DNA of 40,071 nt, taken from positions 1 through 40,071 of the forward strand of contig CABXRL010000007.1 in the NCBI GenBank assembly GCA_902514605.1. The letters are read 5' to 3'. This document shows, piece after piece, positions 4,684 through 15,804 of this stretch; the stretch's first letter is position 1, and each line of letters starts with the position of its first letter. The notes beneath the pieces are model-generated. The model saw only the letters and a list, made by a program, of their open reading frames with translations. It did not search any database and was not told where the DNA came from. Both the position numbers and the translations under genes were made by a program. The DNA comes from an uncultured Pelagibacteraceae bacterium. Lineage in GTDB: Bacteria; Pseudomonadota; Alphaproteobacteria; Pelagibacterales; Pelagibacteraceae.

Positions 4684-4737
4684 TCAGTAATATTTATTGA
4701 TAACTATTATTAAAAAGTTTTGATATTAAGTTTACTA

Positions 4738-5715
4738 ATGGGTAATCCTTTTTTTAAGAATACAGGACCACACGGTATCAATCATTTGTTAAGAAATATT
4801 GATTTAACAAATCAAAAATTTTTAGATGAAACGGTTCAAGATATTAAAGATCTTCATTCATCTCAAATTGGTGAAATTACTTTTTTTCATTCAAAAAAAT
4901 ATGAAGATTTTGCTAAAACAACTAAAGCTTCATTTTGTCTTACAACTGAAAATCTTAAATCGATTTTACCAAAAACATGTAAACCTATAATTACAAATAA
5001 AGTTTTATTGCATACTGCTCAAATCACAAAAATCTTTTATCCTGACTCTGTTACTGATGATTTTGATAATACTGTTCAAGATATAATTAAGACTGAATAT
5101 AACGATAAAGTTAAATTTGGTAAAAATGTTTTAATTGGATCTAATGTAAAAATTGGATCAAATTGTTTATTAGGCCATAATTCAATTATAGAAAAAAACG
5201 TTTCTATTGGTGATAATTGCAAAATAGGTTCAAATGTTATCATAAGAAATTCATTAATTAAGAATAATGTTCACATTTTAGATGGCTGTGTAATAGGAAA
5301 AAAAGGGTTTGGTTTTTTTCCAGATAAAATTTTAAATTTTAGATATCCACAGATTGGTTTAGTCATAATTGAAGATAATGCTGAAATAGGAAGTGGTTCT
5401 ACTATTGATAGAGGTTCATTATCTAATACAGTGATTGGAAAAAATACATTTTTAGATAATCAAATTCATGTAGCTCATAATGTTAAAATTGGTGAAAATT
5501 GTATTATAGCAGGACAAGTTGGTTTTGCTGGAAGCTCTATTTTAGGTAACAATGTTATGATTGGTGGTCAAGCAGGAGTTTCAGGACATTTAAAAATTGG
5601 TAATAATGTTCAGATTGGTGGTGGAAGCGGCGTATTAAAAGATATACCAGATAATACTAAAGTGATGGGATATCCTGCCAAAGATCTAAAAAATTTTATA
5701 AGAGAGAATAAATGA
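4738..5715 (+). CDS. lpxD: UDP-3-O-acylglucosamine N-acyltransferase LpxD; likely start ATG 4738 (MGNPFFKNTGP)
   Basis: Left-handed beta-helix hexapeptide repeats, GFGFFPD, IDRGSLSNTVIG, DNQIHVAHNVKIGENC. Confidence 0.93.
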   Translation: MGNPFFKNTGPHGINHLLRNIDLTNQKFLDETVQDIKDLHSSQIGEITFFHSKKYEDFAKTTKASFCLTTENLKSILPKTCKPIITNKVLLHTAQITKIFYPDSVTDDFDNTVQDIIKTEYNDKVKFGKNVLIGSNVKIGSNCLLGHNSIIEKNVSIGDNCKIGSNVIIRNSLIKNNVHILDGCVIGKKGFGFFPDKILNFRYPQIGLVIIEDNAEIGSGSTIDRGSLSNTVIGKNTFLDNQIHVAHNVKIGENCIIAGQVGFAGSSILGNNVMIGGQAGVSGHLKIGNNVQIGGGSGVLKDIPDNTKVMGYPAKDLKNFIRENK

Positions 5716-6380
5716 TAGATAAAACAGCTATTGTAAATAAAAATGCCAAAATCCATTCAAGTGTTAGCATTGGACCTTATTCTGTAATTGGTCCTAATGT
5801 AGAAATTGAAGAGAATACGGAGATACAATCACATGTAAACATTATCGGAAATACTAAAATTGGAAAAAGAAATAAGATTTATCCGTTTGTTTCGATTAAT
5901 GATCCTCAAGACTTAAAATATAATGGTGAAGAAACAAGTTTAGTTATTGGAGATAATAATAAAATAAGAGAATTCGTAACTATAAATCCTGGAACAATTG
6001 GTGGTGGAGGCAAGACTGTAATTGGAAATAATTGTTTATTTATGATTTCATCACATGTAGCTCATGATTGTCAGGTAGGTAATAATGTCATCATAGCAAA
6101 TAATGTACCTTTAGGAGGTCATGCTATTATTGAAGATAATGTGGTCATAGGTGGTAATTCTGCTGTTCAACAGTTTACAAGAATTGGTAAAATGGCAATG
6201 ATTGGTGGGATGACAGGAGTACTACACGATGTCATTCCTTATGGATTATCAATAGGGAATAGAAATTCATTACAAGGATTAAATTTAATTGGGTTGAGAA
6301 GGGCAAAATTTGAAAATAGAGATATTTTAGGATTAAGTGAGGCATATAAAGAGATTTTTGCTACCAAAAATATTAATTAA
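5712..6380 (+). CDS. lpxA: UDP-N-acetylglucosamine acyltransferase LpxA, apparently truncated by an in-frame TAA (6378-6380)
   Basis: Hexapeptide repeats, HVAHDCQVGNNVIIANNVPLGGH, GLNLIGLRRAKF; C-terminal helical domain continues in the same frame after the stop. Confidence 0.9.
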   Translation: MIDKTAIVNKNAKIHSSVSIGPYSVIGPNVEIEENTEIQSHVNIIGNTKIGKRNKIYPFVSINDPQDLKYNGEETSLVIGDNNKIREFVTINPGTIGGGGKTVIGNNCLFMISSHVAHDCQVGNNVIIANNVPLGGHAIIEDNVVIGGNSAVQQFTRIGKMAMIGGMTGVLHDVIPYGLSIGNRNSLQGLNLIGLRRAKFENRDILGLSEAYKEIFATKNIN

Positions 6381-6488
6381 AATATAAGTAAATTAAATGG
6401 CTCATTTCAGGAAAATCCATTAGTTAAAGAAGTAATAGAATTTATTACTAAAGATAAAAAAAGGTCTATTTGTACCCCATTTTCATAA
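6381..6488 (+). pseudogene. lpxA: Detached C-terminal segment of lpxA (NISKLNGSFQENPLVKEVIEFITKDKKRSICTPFS*), same frame as lpxA
   Basis: Hand translation of 6381-6488 in the lpxA frame gives an LpxA-like C-terminus ending in TAA (6486-6488), 1 nt before the lpxI ATG at 6490. Confidence 0.8.
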
Positions 6489-6489
6489 G

Positions 6490-7284
6490 ATGATAGGATT
6501 AATTTTTGGTGATACAGATTTTCCAAATAAAATACTTAAAACAATAAAGAAAAGAAAAATAAAGTACCTAATAATAGATTTATCTAAATCAAAGAGATTT
6601 AAAGAAGAGAGTAAATCTTATTCAGTTTCTATAGGTCAATTTGGTAAAATAATTAATATTCTTAGAGAAAATAGCTGTAAAAGAGTTTTATTTGCAGGAA
6701 AAGTTAACAAACCAAACTTTTCTAAGTTAAAGTTAGATTTTAAAGGAATTTATTATATTCCAAGAATTATTAAAGCATCGAAGCTTGGTGATGCTGCAAT
6801 TTTGAGAGAAATTATAAAAATATTAGCTCAAAATAAGATAAAAACTGAAAATTCACTTAGATTTAATCCAGAGCTCACTCTTAAAAAGGGTAATTATTCA
6901 AAGATTAAGCCCAATAATAAGGATCAGTCAGACATTATAAAGGCCATTAAAACGCTAAATAGTTTAAAAGAGTATAATTATAGTCAAGGAGTTGTAGTCA
7001 GAAATAAAAAGATAGTTTCTATTGAGGGAAAGGGTGGAACAAAAAAATTACTCGAAAAAAGTAAAAGTAAAAAATTTAAAAACAACGGTGTTTTAGTTAA
7101 GTTTCCAAAAAAGAAACAAGACCTAAGAGTTGACTTACCCACTATTGGATTGAAAACACTAAAACAAAGCAAGAATGCAGGATTAAAAGGTATTGTTGTA
7201 AAAAGTAAACAACATGTATTTTTAGATAAAAAAAAATGTATCAGCTTTGCAAATAAAAATAAGATGTTTATCTTGGTTAAATGA
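6490..7284 (+). CDS. lpxI: UDP-2,3-diacylglucosamine pyrophosphatase LpxI (DUF1009 family)
   Basis: Lies between lpxA and lpxB; DUF1009-like motifs GLIFGDTDFPNKI, LGDAAILREI, LPTIGLKTLKQSKNAGLKGIVVKS. Confidence 0.88.
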   Translation: MIGLIFGDTDFPNKILKTIKKRKIKYLIIDLSKSKRFKEESKSYSVSIGQFGKIINILRENSCKRVLFAGKVNKPNFSKLKLDFKGIYYIPRIIKASKLGDAAILREIIKILAQNKIKTENSLRFNPELTLKKGNYSKIKPNNKDQSDIIKAIKTLNSLKEYNYSQGVVVRNKKIVSIEGKGGTKKLLEKSKSKKFKNNGVLVKFPKKKQDLRVDLPTIGLKTLKQSKNAGLKGIVVKSKQHVFLDKKKCISFANKNKMFILVK

Positions 7285-8417
7285 AAAAAATTTTTGTATT
7301 AACCGGCGAACCTTCAGGAGACAAATTAGCATCAACCGTAATTGAAAAACTTCAACAAAATCATTCTGATATAGAATATTTAAGTGTTGGAGGATCTCAT
7401 TTAAATAAACTTGGGGTCAAATCAATATATGATCTTAAAGAGATAACTTATATTGGATTTACGAGTGTTATCTTAAATTTGTTTAAAATCAGAAACAAAA
7501 TAAATGGAACTGTAAAAAAGATAATTGAATTTAATCCTGATATTCTATTTACTGTAGATAGTCCAGATTTTACTTTAAGAGTTGCTGAAAAAGTAAAAAG
7601 TATCAATCCTAATATTAAAATAATACACTATGTTGCACCACAAGTATGGGTATGGAGAGAGGGAAGGGTTAAGAATTTTAAAAAGTTTTTAGATCATGTA
7701 TTATTATTATTTAATTTTGAAAAAAAATATTTTGATAAAGAAAATATCAAGAATACTTTTGTTGGTCATCCCTTACTCGAAAATAAAGAAAATATTAAAA
7801 CAAATTTATCAAATATAATTAATGAAAATAAAAAGATTATATCTTTATTTGCTGGAAGCCGAATATCTGAAACGAACATTCTTTTACCGATCTTAATAGA
7901 TTTTATTAAATTAATGAATGAAAAATTTAACGAATATAATTTTATTTTTCATGCAACTGATCAAAATAAAGATTTGATAAAAAACGAGATTAAAAAAACA
8001 AATTTTGATAACGTCGATGTTATATCAGAAGAAAATATAAAATCACAAATTTTATCAAACTCAATATTTGCTGTGGCGAAATCTGGAACTGTTTCCCTTG
8101 AAATCTGCAATGCAAAAGTTCCGTCTATTATAATTTATAAAATGAATTTTATTAATTTTTTTATCGTAAAATTTTTAGTTAAGACAAAATTTGCAAATAT
8201 AATTAATATAATTAACCAAAAAGAAATAATTCCAGAATTAATTCAAAAAGAATGTAATTCAAAAGAAATTTTTAGATCTGTAGTATACTTTTTAAAAAAT
8301 CCTGAACTTATGGAAAAACAAATTCTCGATGTAAATAAGACTTTAAATGAGATTAAATCTAAAACTTCTTCATCATTAGAAGCCACAGAGGTAGTTTCAA
8401 GCTATCTTAGCTCCTAG
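7281..8417 (+). CDS. lpxB: Lipid-A-disaccharide synthase
   Basis: FVLTGEPSGDKLAS, VDSPDFTLRVA, HYVAPQVWVWREGR, FVGHPLLE, LFAGSR motifs. Confidence 0.95.
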   Translation: MKKIFVLTGEPSGDKLASTVIEKLQQNHSDIEYLSVGGSHLNKLGVKSIYDLKEITYIGFTSVILNLFKIRNKINGTVKKIIEFNPDILFTVDSPDFTLRVAEKVKSINPNIKIIHYVAPQVWVWREGRVKNFKKFLDHVLLLFNFEKKYFDKENIKNTFVGHPLLENKENIKTNLSNIINENKKIISLFAGSRISETNILLPILIDFIKLMNEKFNEYNFIFHATDQNKDLIKNEIKKTNFDNVDVISEENIKSQILSNSIFAVAKSGTVSLEICNAKVPSIIIYKMNFINFFIVKFLVKTKFANIINIINQKEIIPELIQKECNSKEIFRSVVYFLKNPELMEKQILDVNKTLNEIKSKTSSSLEATEVVSSYLSS

Positions 8418-9794
8418 TCGTTTTTGAACTTCCTCTTTTCCTAAGGATAAAATTATATCATAAATACCAGGTCCAAACTTCGAACCTGTTAAAGCAATTC
8501 TTAATGGTTGTCCAACACCCTTAAAATTTGTGCCGTGTGATTTTATGAGCTCATATACTATTGGTTCTAAAATTTCTCTAGATGGCACGTCTATTTTCTC
8601 AAATTGATACTCAAAATCAGAAATTACTTTTCTTGCTCTATCGTCAATTAATTTAAGATCATCTTTATTAAAATCGACCTCATCTTTTAAAATATATTGA
8701 GCATTATTAAATATATCCTCCAAAGTTTTTGCTTTATTTTTCAAGAAAGTAAGAGATTTTTTAATCTTATCTTTTTTATCTGATTGAATTTCACTTTTAT
8801 ATAATTTGCAATATTCAGTTAATTGATTGAATAAATCATTTTCATCTATATTTTTAATATAATGTTCATTCATTGATAAAATTCTGCTCATATCAAGCTT
8901 TGATGGTGATTTACCAATTCCTTCAAGATTAAAATATTTAATACTTTCATCTAAGGTAAATATTTCTTTATCTTTATAAGACCATCCTAATCTCAGTAGA
9001 TAGTTTCTTAAAGCGTCAGGCATAATACCAATTTTAGAGTAATCATCTAATGTAGATGCTTTATCTCTCTTTGATAATTTCTTTCCTTCGATTGTGTGTA
9101 TTAAAGGAATATGGGCAAATGAAGGTAACTCCCATTTCATGGCTTGATAAATTTGTATTTGTTTGAAGGTGTTTATTTTATGATCGTCACCTCTTATGAT
9201 ATGTGTCATATTCATTTGATGATCGTCTACAGATGCTGATAAATTATATGTAGGAGTCCCATCATTTCTTAAGATAATAAAATCCTCAATAGTATTATTT
9301 TCTATTTCGACGTCACCTTGAACAAAATCTTTCAATATTGATGTTCCATCAATCTTACTTTTAAATCTTATAACAGGTTTAATATCTTTGGGAGCATCAT
9401 TTTCACTTTTATCTCTCCATTTTCTATCGTATATATAAGGAACCTTTTTTTGCCTTGCCCTTTTTTTTTGTTCTTCTATGTCTTCACTTGAACAATAACA
9501 TTTATATGCATTACCATTTTTAAGTAGCTCATTTGCAACTTTAATATGATCATCTACTTTTTTTGATTGAATATATTCTTCCCCATCATAATTGATACCG
9601 ATCCATTTAAGCGATTGTATTATTTGATCTTTGAATTCATCTTTAGATCTTTCTTTATCTGTATCTTCCACCCTTAAATAAAATTTGCCATTATGATTTT
9701 TGGAGTATAACCAATTAAATAAAGCTGTTCTAATTCCACCAATATGTAAAGGCCCAGTAGGTGATGGAGCAAATCTAGTTGCTACTTTTTTCAT
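8397..9794 (-). CDS. gltX: Glutamyl-tRNA synthetase
   Basis: RFAPSPTGPLHIGGIRTALFNWL and KKLSKRDKAS class I aaRS signatures. Confidence 0.96.
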   Translation of the reverse strand: MKKVATRFAPSPTGPLHIGGIRTALFNWLYSKNHNGKFYLRVEDTDKERSKDEFKDQIIQSLKWIGINYDGEEYIQSKKVDDHIKVANELLKNGNAYKCYCSSEDIEEQKKRARQKKVPYIYDRKWRDKSENDAPKDIKPVIRFKSKIDGTSILKDFVQGDVEIENNTIEDFIILRNDGTPTYNLSASVDDHQMNMTHIIRGDDHKINTFKQIQIYQAMKWELPSFAHIPLIHTIEGKKLSKRDKASTLDDYSKIGIMPDALRNYLLRLGWSYKDKEIFTLDESIKYFNLEGIGKSPSKLDMSRILSMNEHYIKNIDENDLFNQLTEYCKLYKSEIQSDKKDKIKKSLTFLKNKAKTLEDIFNNAQYILKDEVDFNKDDLKLIDDRARKVISDFEYQFEKIDVPSREILEPIVYELIKSHGTNFKGVGQPLRIALTGSKFGPGIYDIILSLGKEEVQKRLGAKIA

Positions 9795-12932: not shown

Positions 12933-14389
12933 TTTAAAGCATTAATTAAAGCTTTTGCTTTATTTATGGTTTCTTCATATTCTTTTAAGGGTTTGCTATC
13001 AGCAACAATTCCAGCTCCAGCTTGAACATAAAATTTACCTTTTTTAGCCAAAGCCGTTCTTAAAGCTATACATGTATCAAATTCTCCGTTTGCTGAAAAA
13101 TAGCCAATACCACCAGCATAAACTTTTCTCTTAGCTGTCTCTAATTCATCAATTATTTCCATAGCTCGAATTTTTGGTGCCCCAGAGACAGTACCTGCTG
13201 GAAAACCAGCCAGAAGTGATTTAAACTTTGAAAATTTATTATTATATTCACCAATAACATTTGATACTATGTGCATCACATGAGAATATCTTTCAATAAT
13301 AAAGCTCTCTGTTACTTTTACCGTATTAATTTTTGAAACTTTACCGGCATCATTTCTTCCTAAATCTAATAACATTAAATGCTCTGAAAGTTCTTTTTTA
13401 TCCTGAAGAAGATCTTTTTCATAAAAACGATCCTCACTCAGTGTTTTACCGCGTGGTCTTGTCCCAGCGATTGGTCTTACAGTAATTTTGTTATCTCTTA
13501 GTCTCACCAGTATTTCTGGACTTGCGCCAATAATTTGAAAGTCATCGAAATTGAAAAAAAACATAAAAGGTGATGGGTTAGTTACTCTAAGTTTTTTATA
13601 AATTTCAATTGGTTCTTTTGTTAATTTAGCTTCAAATCTTTGACTTAGAACTACCTGAAATATATCTCCTAATTTTACATATTTTTTTGCCTTATTGATC
13701 ATTTGTAAGAATCTATTTTTTGAAGTATTTGATTTGACTTTAATATTTTTTGATTTTATTTCAGTCCTATTATTCATATTCTTAATTGATGATTGAATTA
13801 GCAATTTAAAAAGATCTGCTCTTACTTCGTCATATTTGTTTTTATAATTTTTGATTTTTTCATCTTTATAGATATTTCTAATATAAAAAATTTCTTTTTT
13901 TAAGTTATCATGAATTATAAGTGTTCTTGGTCGCAGAAGTCTTACATCAGGTATATCTAGATCATCCTTACAATTATTCGGAATTTTTTCTATATATCTT
14001 ATAGAGTCATAGGAAAAATATCCTGAAATTAGAGAACAAATTTTTGGCAAATTTTTAGGAGTTTCGAATTTAAATTCCTCAATAATTTTCTCAATTAATT
14101 TTTCAGGTTTATCTTTAAGTTTAATTTTCTTATTATTTTGAATCAAATAAGAATTTTTATTATTAAATTCCCAGATCTTATCAGGATTCTTACCAAATAT
14201 GGTGTATCTCCCTTTGATTTTACCTTTCTCTACTGATTCAAATATAAAGCTATTTTTTTCATTTAAAAAATTATCTATTAAATTTAAAATCTCTTCATCG
14301 CCTTTGATTTTTTTTGAAGTATATATAATTTGATTTTTATTGCTTCTATGTCGAAACTTAAAATCTTTGAAGCTTCGATTTATGTTCAT
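12929..14389 (-). CDS. trpE: Anthranilate synthase component I
   Basis: GASPEILVRLRDNKITVRPIAGTRPRG, GRNDAGKV, PAGTVSGAPKIRAMEIIDELE. Confidence 0.96.
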   Translation of the reverse strand: MNINRSFKDFKFRHRSNKNQIIYTSKKIKGDEEILNLIDNFLNEKNSFIFESVEKGKIKGRYTIFGKNPDKIWEFNNKNSYLIQNNKKIKLKDKPEKLIEKIIEEFKFETPKNLPKICSLISGYFSYDSIRYIEKIPNNCKDDLDIPDVRLLRPRTLIIHDNLKKEIFYIRNIYKDEKIKNYKNKYDEVRADLFKLLIQSSIKNMNNRTEIKSKNIKVKSNTSKNRFLQMINKAKKYVKLGDIFQVVLSQRFEAKLTKEPIEIYKKLRVTNPSPFMFFFNFDDFQIIGASPEILVRLRDNKITVRPIAGTRPRGKTLSEDRFYEKDLLQDKKELSEHLMLLDLGRNDAGKVSKINTVKVTESFIIERYSHVMHIVSNVIGEYNNKFSKFKSLLAGFPAGTVSGAPKIRAMEIIDELETAKRKVYAGGIGYFSANGEFDTCIALRTALAKKGKFYVQAGAGIVADSKPLKEYEETINKAKALINALK

Positions 14390-15804
14390 TGAAAGAAATT
14401 CTTAACTCGTTCTATTGTTTTTTGATTCAATACCACATTATACTTATCATTTAAAAGTAAATCATAAGATTTAAGTATATTATTTCTGCTATTTGTATTT
14501 TGTTTTTCAGAATATTCTTTAAACTTATCATCATTTATATTTATACTTTCATTCGTGATGTTTTTTATTTTTGCAAGATAAACCACATTTAAATAATCAT
14601 TTATCAAGGTAAAGGATCCGGCTGGTAAAGAGTACAAGAGCTCAATAGTATTTGCTTCAAATTTTTCGTTATCATTAATCGATGTTAATGTTAAAACTTT
14701 TATTTTATCTTTCCCCATTTCTTTAAAATCATTATCATTAAATTTTTTATCATTTATTTTTTTAAATAAAACTCTGTTGTAATCAAATTTATTTCTTTGA
14801 GTGATAAGTTCTAAAACTTCTTTTTTTAAGCTTGAATCATTTATATCTGGTGATCGCTCTTCTGTATTGTTAATATGGTAAACTATATAGTTGTTATCAC
14901 TTTCTATTATATCAAAATCTATTTTTCTTGATTCAAATATTTTTTTTTCAATTTTATTTTTTTCAGAAGTATCTCTGTAATTTTTAACTTCAGTTGTTTC
15001 AATATTAAAGTTTGATAGAGTTGATCTTAAATCTTGGCTATTTAAAAACTTTTTTTCAATTTCATCAATTGCATCAAAGAATGCTTGATTAAAATCATCA
15101 ATGCCGATTAGATTTTTGGGATTTAAAATCGCATAATCAAAGTCAATGTATTCAACCTTTAATTCATCTTTGTTCTCTTTTAAAAAATTTATGATTTCTA
15201 TTTCAGTAAATTCACTCTTTTTTTTATAAAAGTTCTCTAAATTAATATATTCAACCTCAATATTTTTATTTTCCTCTTCATAAAGTTTTTTTACTAAAAA
15301 TTTAGGAACTGAGGTTCCAGCTCCGATGTAATCAAATAAGTTTTTTTGCAACGCAACGCCTTTAATTCCTGACTCAAAAGATGGCGCTGATTGGTTATTT
15401 TCAAGCAAAAATTTCTCATATTTCATTCTATCAAAATTTCCCTTTTCATTTAAAAAATTTTTGTCTGCTTTAATTTTTTTAGATAATATTTCTTTTGTAA
15501 TTTTTATATCAAAGTCTTCTATTTCTAAGTCTAACAAAGATGACGAAATCAAAGTAGATAATAATTCTTCTAATATGTTCTTATCAAGATTTTTTCTGAT
15601 CGTTTCATCTGGTATGTTTGACCTATTTATATGGTTTATAAAATCTTGTGTTGAAATATTCGATTCATTAATTTTAGCAACATTATTTGTATTTCCACTA
15701 CTGAACATACTTCCCATACCCCAAAAAACGAACGGGATTATCATAATGAAAACTAATAAGCCAGCAAATTTGGTTTTTGCAAAATTTCTAAAACTTCCAA
15801 TCAT
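14386..15804 (-). CDS. SurA_N/PpiD-like membrane-anchored periplasmic chaperone; parvulin domain not recognisable
   Basis: N-terminal membrane anchor MIGSFRNFAKTKFAGLLVFIMIIPFVFWGMGSMF followed by a SurA_N-like helical region; position upstream of trpE. Confidence 0.75.
   Translation of the reverse strand: MIGSFRNFAKTKFAGLLVFIMIIPFVFWGMGSMFSSGNTNNVAKINESNISTQDFINHINRSNIPDETIRKNLDKNILEELLSTLISSSLLDLEIEDFDIKITKEILSKKIKADKNFLNEKGNFDRMKYEKFLLENNQSAPSFESGIKGVALQKNLFDYIGAGTSVPKFLVKKLYEEENKNIEVEYINLENFYKKKSEFTEIEIINFLKENKDELKVEYIDFDYAILNPKNLIGIDDFNQAFFDAIDEIEKKFLNSQDLRSTLSNFNIETTEVKNYRDTSEKNKIEKKIFESRKIDFDIIESDNNYIVYHINNTEERSPDINDSSLKKEVLELITQRNKFDYNRVLFKKINDKKFNDNDFKEMGKDKIKVLTLTSINDNEKFEANTIELLYSLPAGSFTLINDYLNVVYLAKIKNITNESININDDKFKEYSEKQNTNSRNNILKSYDLLLNDKYNVVLNQKTIERVKNFFQ

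Follow-up and report, generated by a model that had tools for sequence, protein, structure and literature searches.

The lpxA gene in the window (the whole stretch of DNA analysed here, 40,071 nucleotides) is closed by an in-frame TAA at codon 223, and this stop is probably a one-base amplification, sequencing or assembly error in an otherwise ordinary gene. One base of codon 223 would then be wrong in the draft, where a glutamate codon reads TAA, and the source cell would most likely make a full-length LpxA of 258 aa. We consider the finding ordinary and rank its explanations with an error first and a private, recent mutation second.

Read directly from the sequence, the lpxA ORF as written (5712..6380, forward strand) starts with an ATG at 5712 and ends with the TAA at 6378-6380, in agreement with the earlier note. 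It encodes 222 aa, corresponding to a UDP-GlcNAc O-acyltransferase minus its last 36 residues. Past the TAA, the same frame is open as NISKLNGSFQENPLVKEVIEFITKDKKRSICTPFS and finishes at a second TAA at 6486-6488. This detached stretch of 35 codons plus stop (6381..6488, forward strand) had been proposed to be a normal LpxA C-terminus, and it is indeed the still conserved tail of the protein: a profile search with PF13720 (LpxA domain 2) matched 6228-6473 over 82 of 82 model positions, spanning one TAA, and the tail aligns gap-free with the C-terminus of dozens of relatives, so the continuation is not due to chance. The 222-aa product contains the hexapeptide beta-helix with an LpxA-type catalytic region (Pfam Hexapep, 1e-27). 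It reaches only positions 1-47 of the 82 of PF13720 (1.5e-11) and thus does not include a complete C-terminal helical domain, the remainder of which sits after the TAA. The conserved LRR motif is encoded upstream of the stop, as is the catalytic beta-helix. A close homologue of the window LpxA matched 47 solved structures, the best of them being LpxA (1.5e-64).

The window LpxA resembles the E. coli enzyme (1LXA) in its left-handed beta-helix repeats, in the catalytic-type SSHVAHDC segment and in the GLRRAKF motif. The gene order around lpxD, lpxI and lpxB is also alike, as is the full coverage of PF13720 once the tail is included. The two differ in that the window frame ends early, at a TAA located 35 codons ahead of the usual end. 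In E. coli LpxA the C-terminal alpha-helical domain comprises residues 187-262, and R258 is among the residues proposed to contact ACP (PMC6408518). According to the alignment, residue 222 of the window LpxA corresponds to about E. coli residue 230, and approximately the last 32 residues are lost. A real truncation should be harmful because the lost tail includes an arginine that, aligned by eye, matches R258.

lpxA is an ordinary gene of a SAR11-like (Pelagibacter-type) alphaproteobacterium and lies in a standard cluster with the order bamA-skp-fabZ-lpxD-lpxA-lpxI-lpxB, the other members of which are open and tightly packed. It is preceded by an intact lpxD (4720..5715), so assigned on the basis of LpxA homology and cluster position, and followed by an intact lpxI (6490..7284) and, downstream, an intact lpxB (7281..8417), which its homologues match over the full length; all are on the forward strand. 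The integrity of these neighbouring lpx genes favours an error in lpxA. The lpxI ATG at 6490 is placed 1 nt beyond the end of the lpxA frame, which would be the whole spacing between the two genes without the stop, and the relatives checked show the same spacing, their lpxA frames running up to the start of lpxI as the frame to the second TAA does in the window. As written, the two ORFs are separated by 109 nt, the widest gap between neighbours inside the bamA-lpxB cluster, where all others are of 36 nt or less. Both the tight placement of the second stop and the oddity of the gap had been pointed out in the earlier note, and both hold. The lpxI product contains both Pfam LpxI domains; the cluster thus uses LpxI, the non-LpxH enzyme for UDP-diacylglucosamine hydrolysis. 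The contigs of four relatives (G359, G255, G169 and G269) each break inside lpxI, at residues ~112-154, representing a recurrent assembly break beside lpxA.

Homologues of lpxA were taken from match lists drawn from 61 relatives and from 397 genomes of the family. Codon 223 encodes an acidic residue in all of the 49 nearest distinct homologues (GAA in 44, GAG in three, GAT in one and GAC in one), which align with the window lpxA at 81-91% nucleotide identity; the nearest is 91% identical, so that the comparison rests on other species. These codons support the earlier proposal that a single substitution made the stop, and the alignment with close relatives that had been called for shows a sense codon at this site in 49 of 49. 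No stop was identified in any other LpxA among the matches listed, more than 150 of which are full-length. The change is therefore private to one assembly, the codon being sense elsewhere, and this pattern favours an error. Relatives whose LpxA naturally ends at this position, the case that would have spoken against a broken gene, were likewise not found among the matches listed, and naturally short forms of the protein were discarded because LpxA in these matches has the usual length unless it is cut by a contig end.

The tail also retains the marks of a functional sequence. It shows ~93-96% nucleotide identity with the nearest species, as compared with ~88-91% for the body of the gene, and its differences are mostly synonymous (synonymous to nonsynonymous changes of 7/0, 5/0 and 5/0 against three near neighbours). 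This higher conservation of the tail, with mostly silent differences, again favours an error. An established pseudogene would show decay or relaxed selection beyond the stop, and few amino acid changes were observed in the tail. Since the tail is undecayed and constrained, the stop is either very recent or not real; judging from these sequence comparisons, the putative truncation is neither ancestral nor old.

The draft that contains the window (G000) consists of 726,753 bases in 45 contigs and is 52% complete; its size, fragmentation and completeness suggest a single-cell genome. It belongs to a large, low-GC (28%) alphaproteobacterial genus with gene content and size of the SAR11/Pelagibacter type. 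To see whether the assembly contains further unlikely interruptions, we took 325 kb of the draft, including the window, and compared them with the ORFs of an 800-kb portion of a relative (G063) that is 99% complete and in one contig. In the 196 kb that matched (214 genes, 65,573 residues) two true interruptions were located, a small count: the lpxA stop and a frameshift in carB. The latter lies at about 49,200 of contig C1 (L080 ~9,170-9,200) and is due to an A run with one extra base, the shorter spacing being common to the 18 relatives that span the site. The carB frameshift is likely a second base-level error of the draft. When ten relatives were submitted to the same test, none showed a true interruption in the 214 kb compared, and this difference with a draft in which carB is also broken favours an error in lpxA. 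carB encodes the large subunit of carbamoyl-phosphate synthase, and its frame might in principle be restored if RNA polymerase slipped on the A run.

The two interruptions resemble the errors described for single-cell and fragmented drafts (PMC6122165), as they consist of an isolated substitution and an isolated homopolymer indel, each of which is private to the assembly and disrupts a conserved gene. In a benchmark of marine single-cell assemblies, 5.0 mismatches and 3.0 indels per 100 kb were reported (PMC6122165). Random substitutions in the window genes yield a stop in 5.5% of cases, and the benchmark rate predicts ~0.5 chance nonsense codons in the 196 kb and ~1.9 in the whole draft. The two observed interruptions are in line with this error rate, and no special biology is needed to account for them. 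With GAA as the ancestral codon, the change at codon 223 would be a G to T, a type of substitution that arises from oxidised guanine.

Next to an error, the explanation to be weighed is a recent, real nonsense mutation private to the cell or strain, which would abolish or diminish lipid A synthesis or leave a short form with partial activity. We regard it as unlikely. The deposited sequence does carry the stop, the catalytic region and the LRR motif precede it, and a recent event would leave the tail intact, as is seen; the TAA may be a real polymorphism of this species. Recent nonsense alleles of ordinary pseudogenization likewise show one substitution and a tail that has not yet decayed, but a free-living bacterium with a streamlined genome is expected to carry them very rarely in an essential core gene. 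Most Gram-negatives depend on LpxA for viability, the relatives examined retain its tail, and no second lpxA was identified in the 52% complete draft, where PF13720 has one match and the remaining hits correspond to LpxD and a distant hexapeptide protein. Furthermore, the break of carB, a second essential-type gene, in the same draft points to error. There was also no sign of natural loss. Twelve genomes of the genus, 87-97% complete and without a strong lpxA match, were probed with lpxB and bamA: lpxB was also absent from seven of the twelve, the contig ended inside lpxI in four and within lpxB in one. This pattern looks like assembly gaps, the lpxA-less genomes checked having no contig across the site, and natural loss in near-complete relatives was rejected. 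As far as can be told from sequence, conservation of the tail throughout the family speaks against a tolerated shorter LpxA, and it seems very improbable that the stop is genuine and that the cell lives with a 222-aa LpxA lacking the end of the helical domain, or with much less lipid A.

Two other arrangements would preserve the function of the tail in spite of the TAA, and we give scarcely any credence to either. Readthrough at some rate by a near-cognate or suppressor tRNA would provide some full-length LpxA and would agree with a tail still under constraint. However, no UUA-anticodon tRNA was present among the 16 tRNAs found in this ~52% complete genome, and 20 of the 34 window genes terminate with TAA, so its suppression would be costly. 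TAA is, moreover, generally the least leaky of the stops. Programmed readthrough or recoding would be expected to conserve the stop at the site, and the arrangement is absent from all relatives examined. Concerning a two-piece LpxA, in which the tail would be translated separately and join the 222-aa body, the tail is in the same transcript and is conserved, but there is no in-frame ATG, GTG or TTG in 6381-6485, the piece would have 35 residues, and no split gene appears in relatives among the matches listed. A split or recoded lpxA is thus unsupported. From the alternatives raised in the earlier note (a tolerated short protein, readthrough, two pieces or an error), the error is the one that the evidence favours.

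If the stop were real, a free-living ocean bacterium could dispense with the end of LpxA, or nearly with lipid A. Under the preferred explanation, an error, a core essential gene can appear broken through one base of a partial draft, and to rank the explanations it is enough to compare relatives and to count the further interruptions that the assembly contains.

A comparison with phage DNA gave no match. Other apparent interruptions of the draft (G000 C9:7673, C1:17450, C5 near 14420 and a short C-terminus in C2) were rejected, as they reflect over-extended starts or length variation of the reference ORF. In contig C5, a tmRNA gene with the tag ANESYALAA was located at ~14,090-14,400 beside a tRNA-Leu, a region into which the reference thyX ORF is over-extended.
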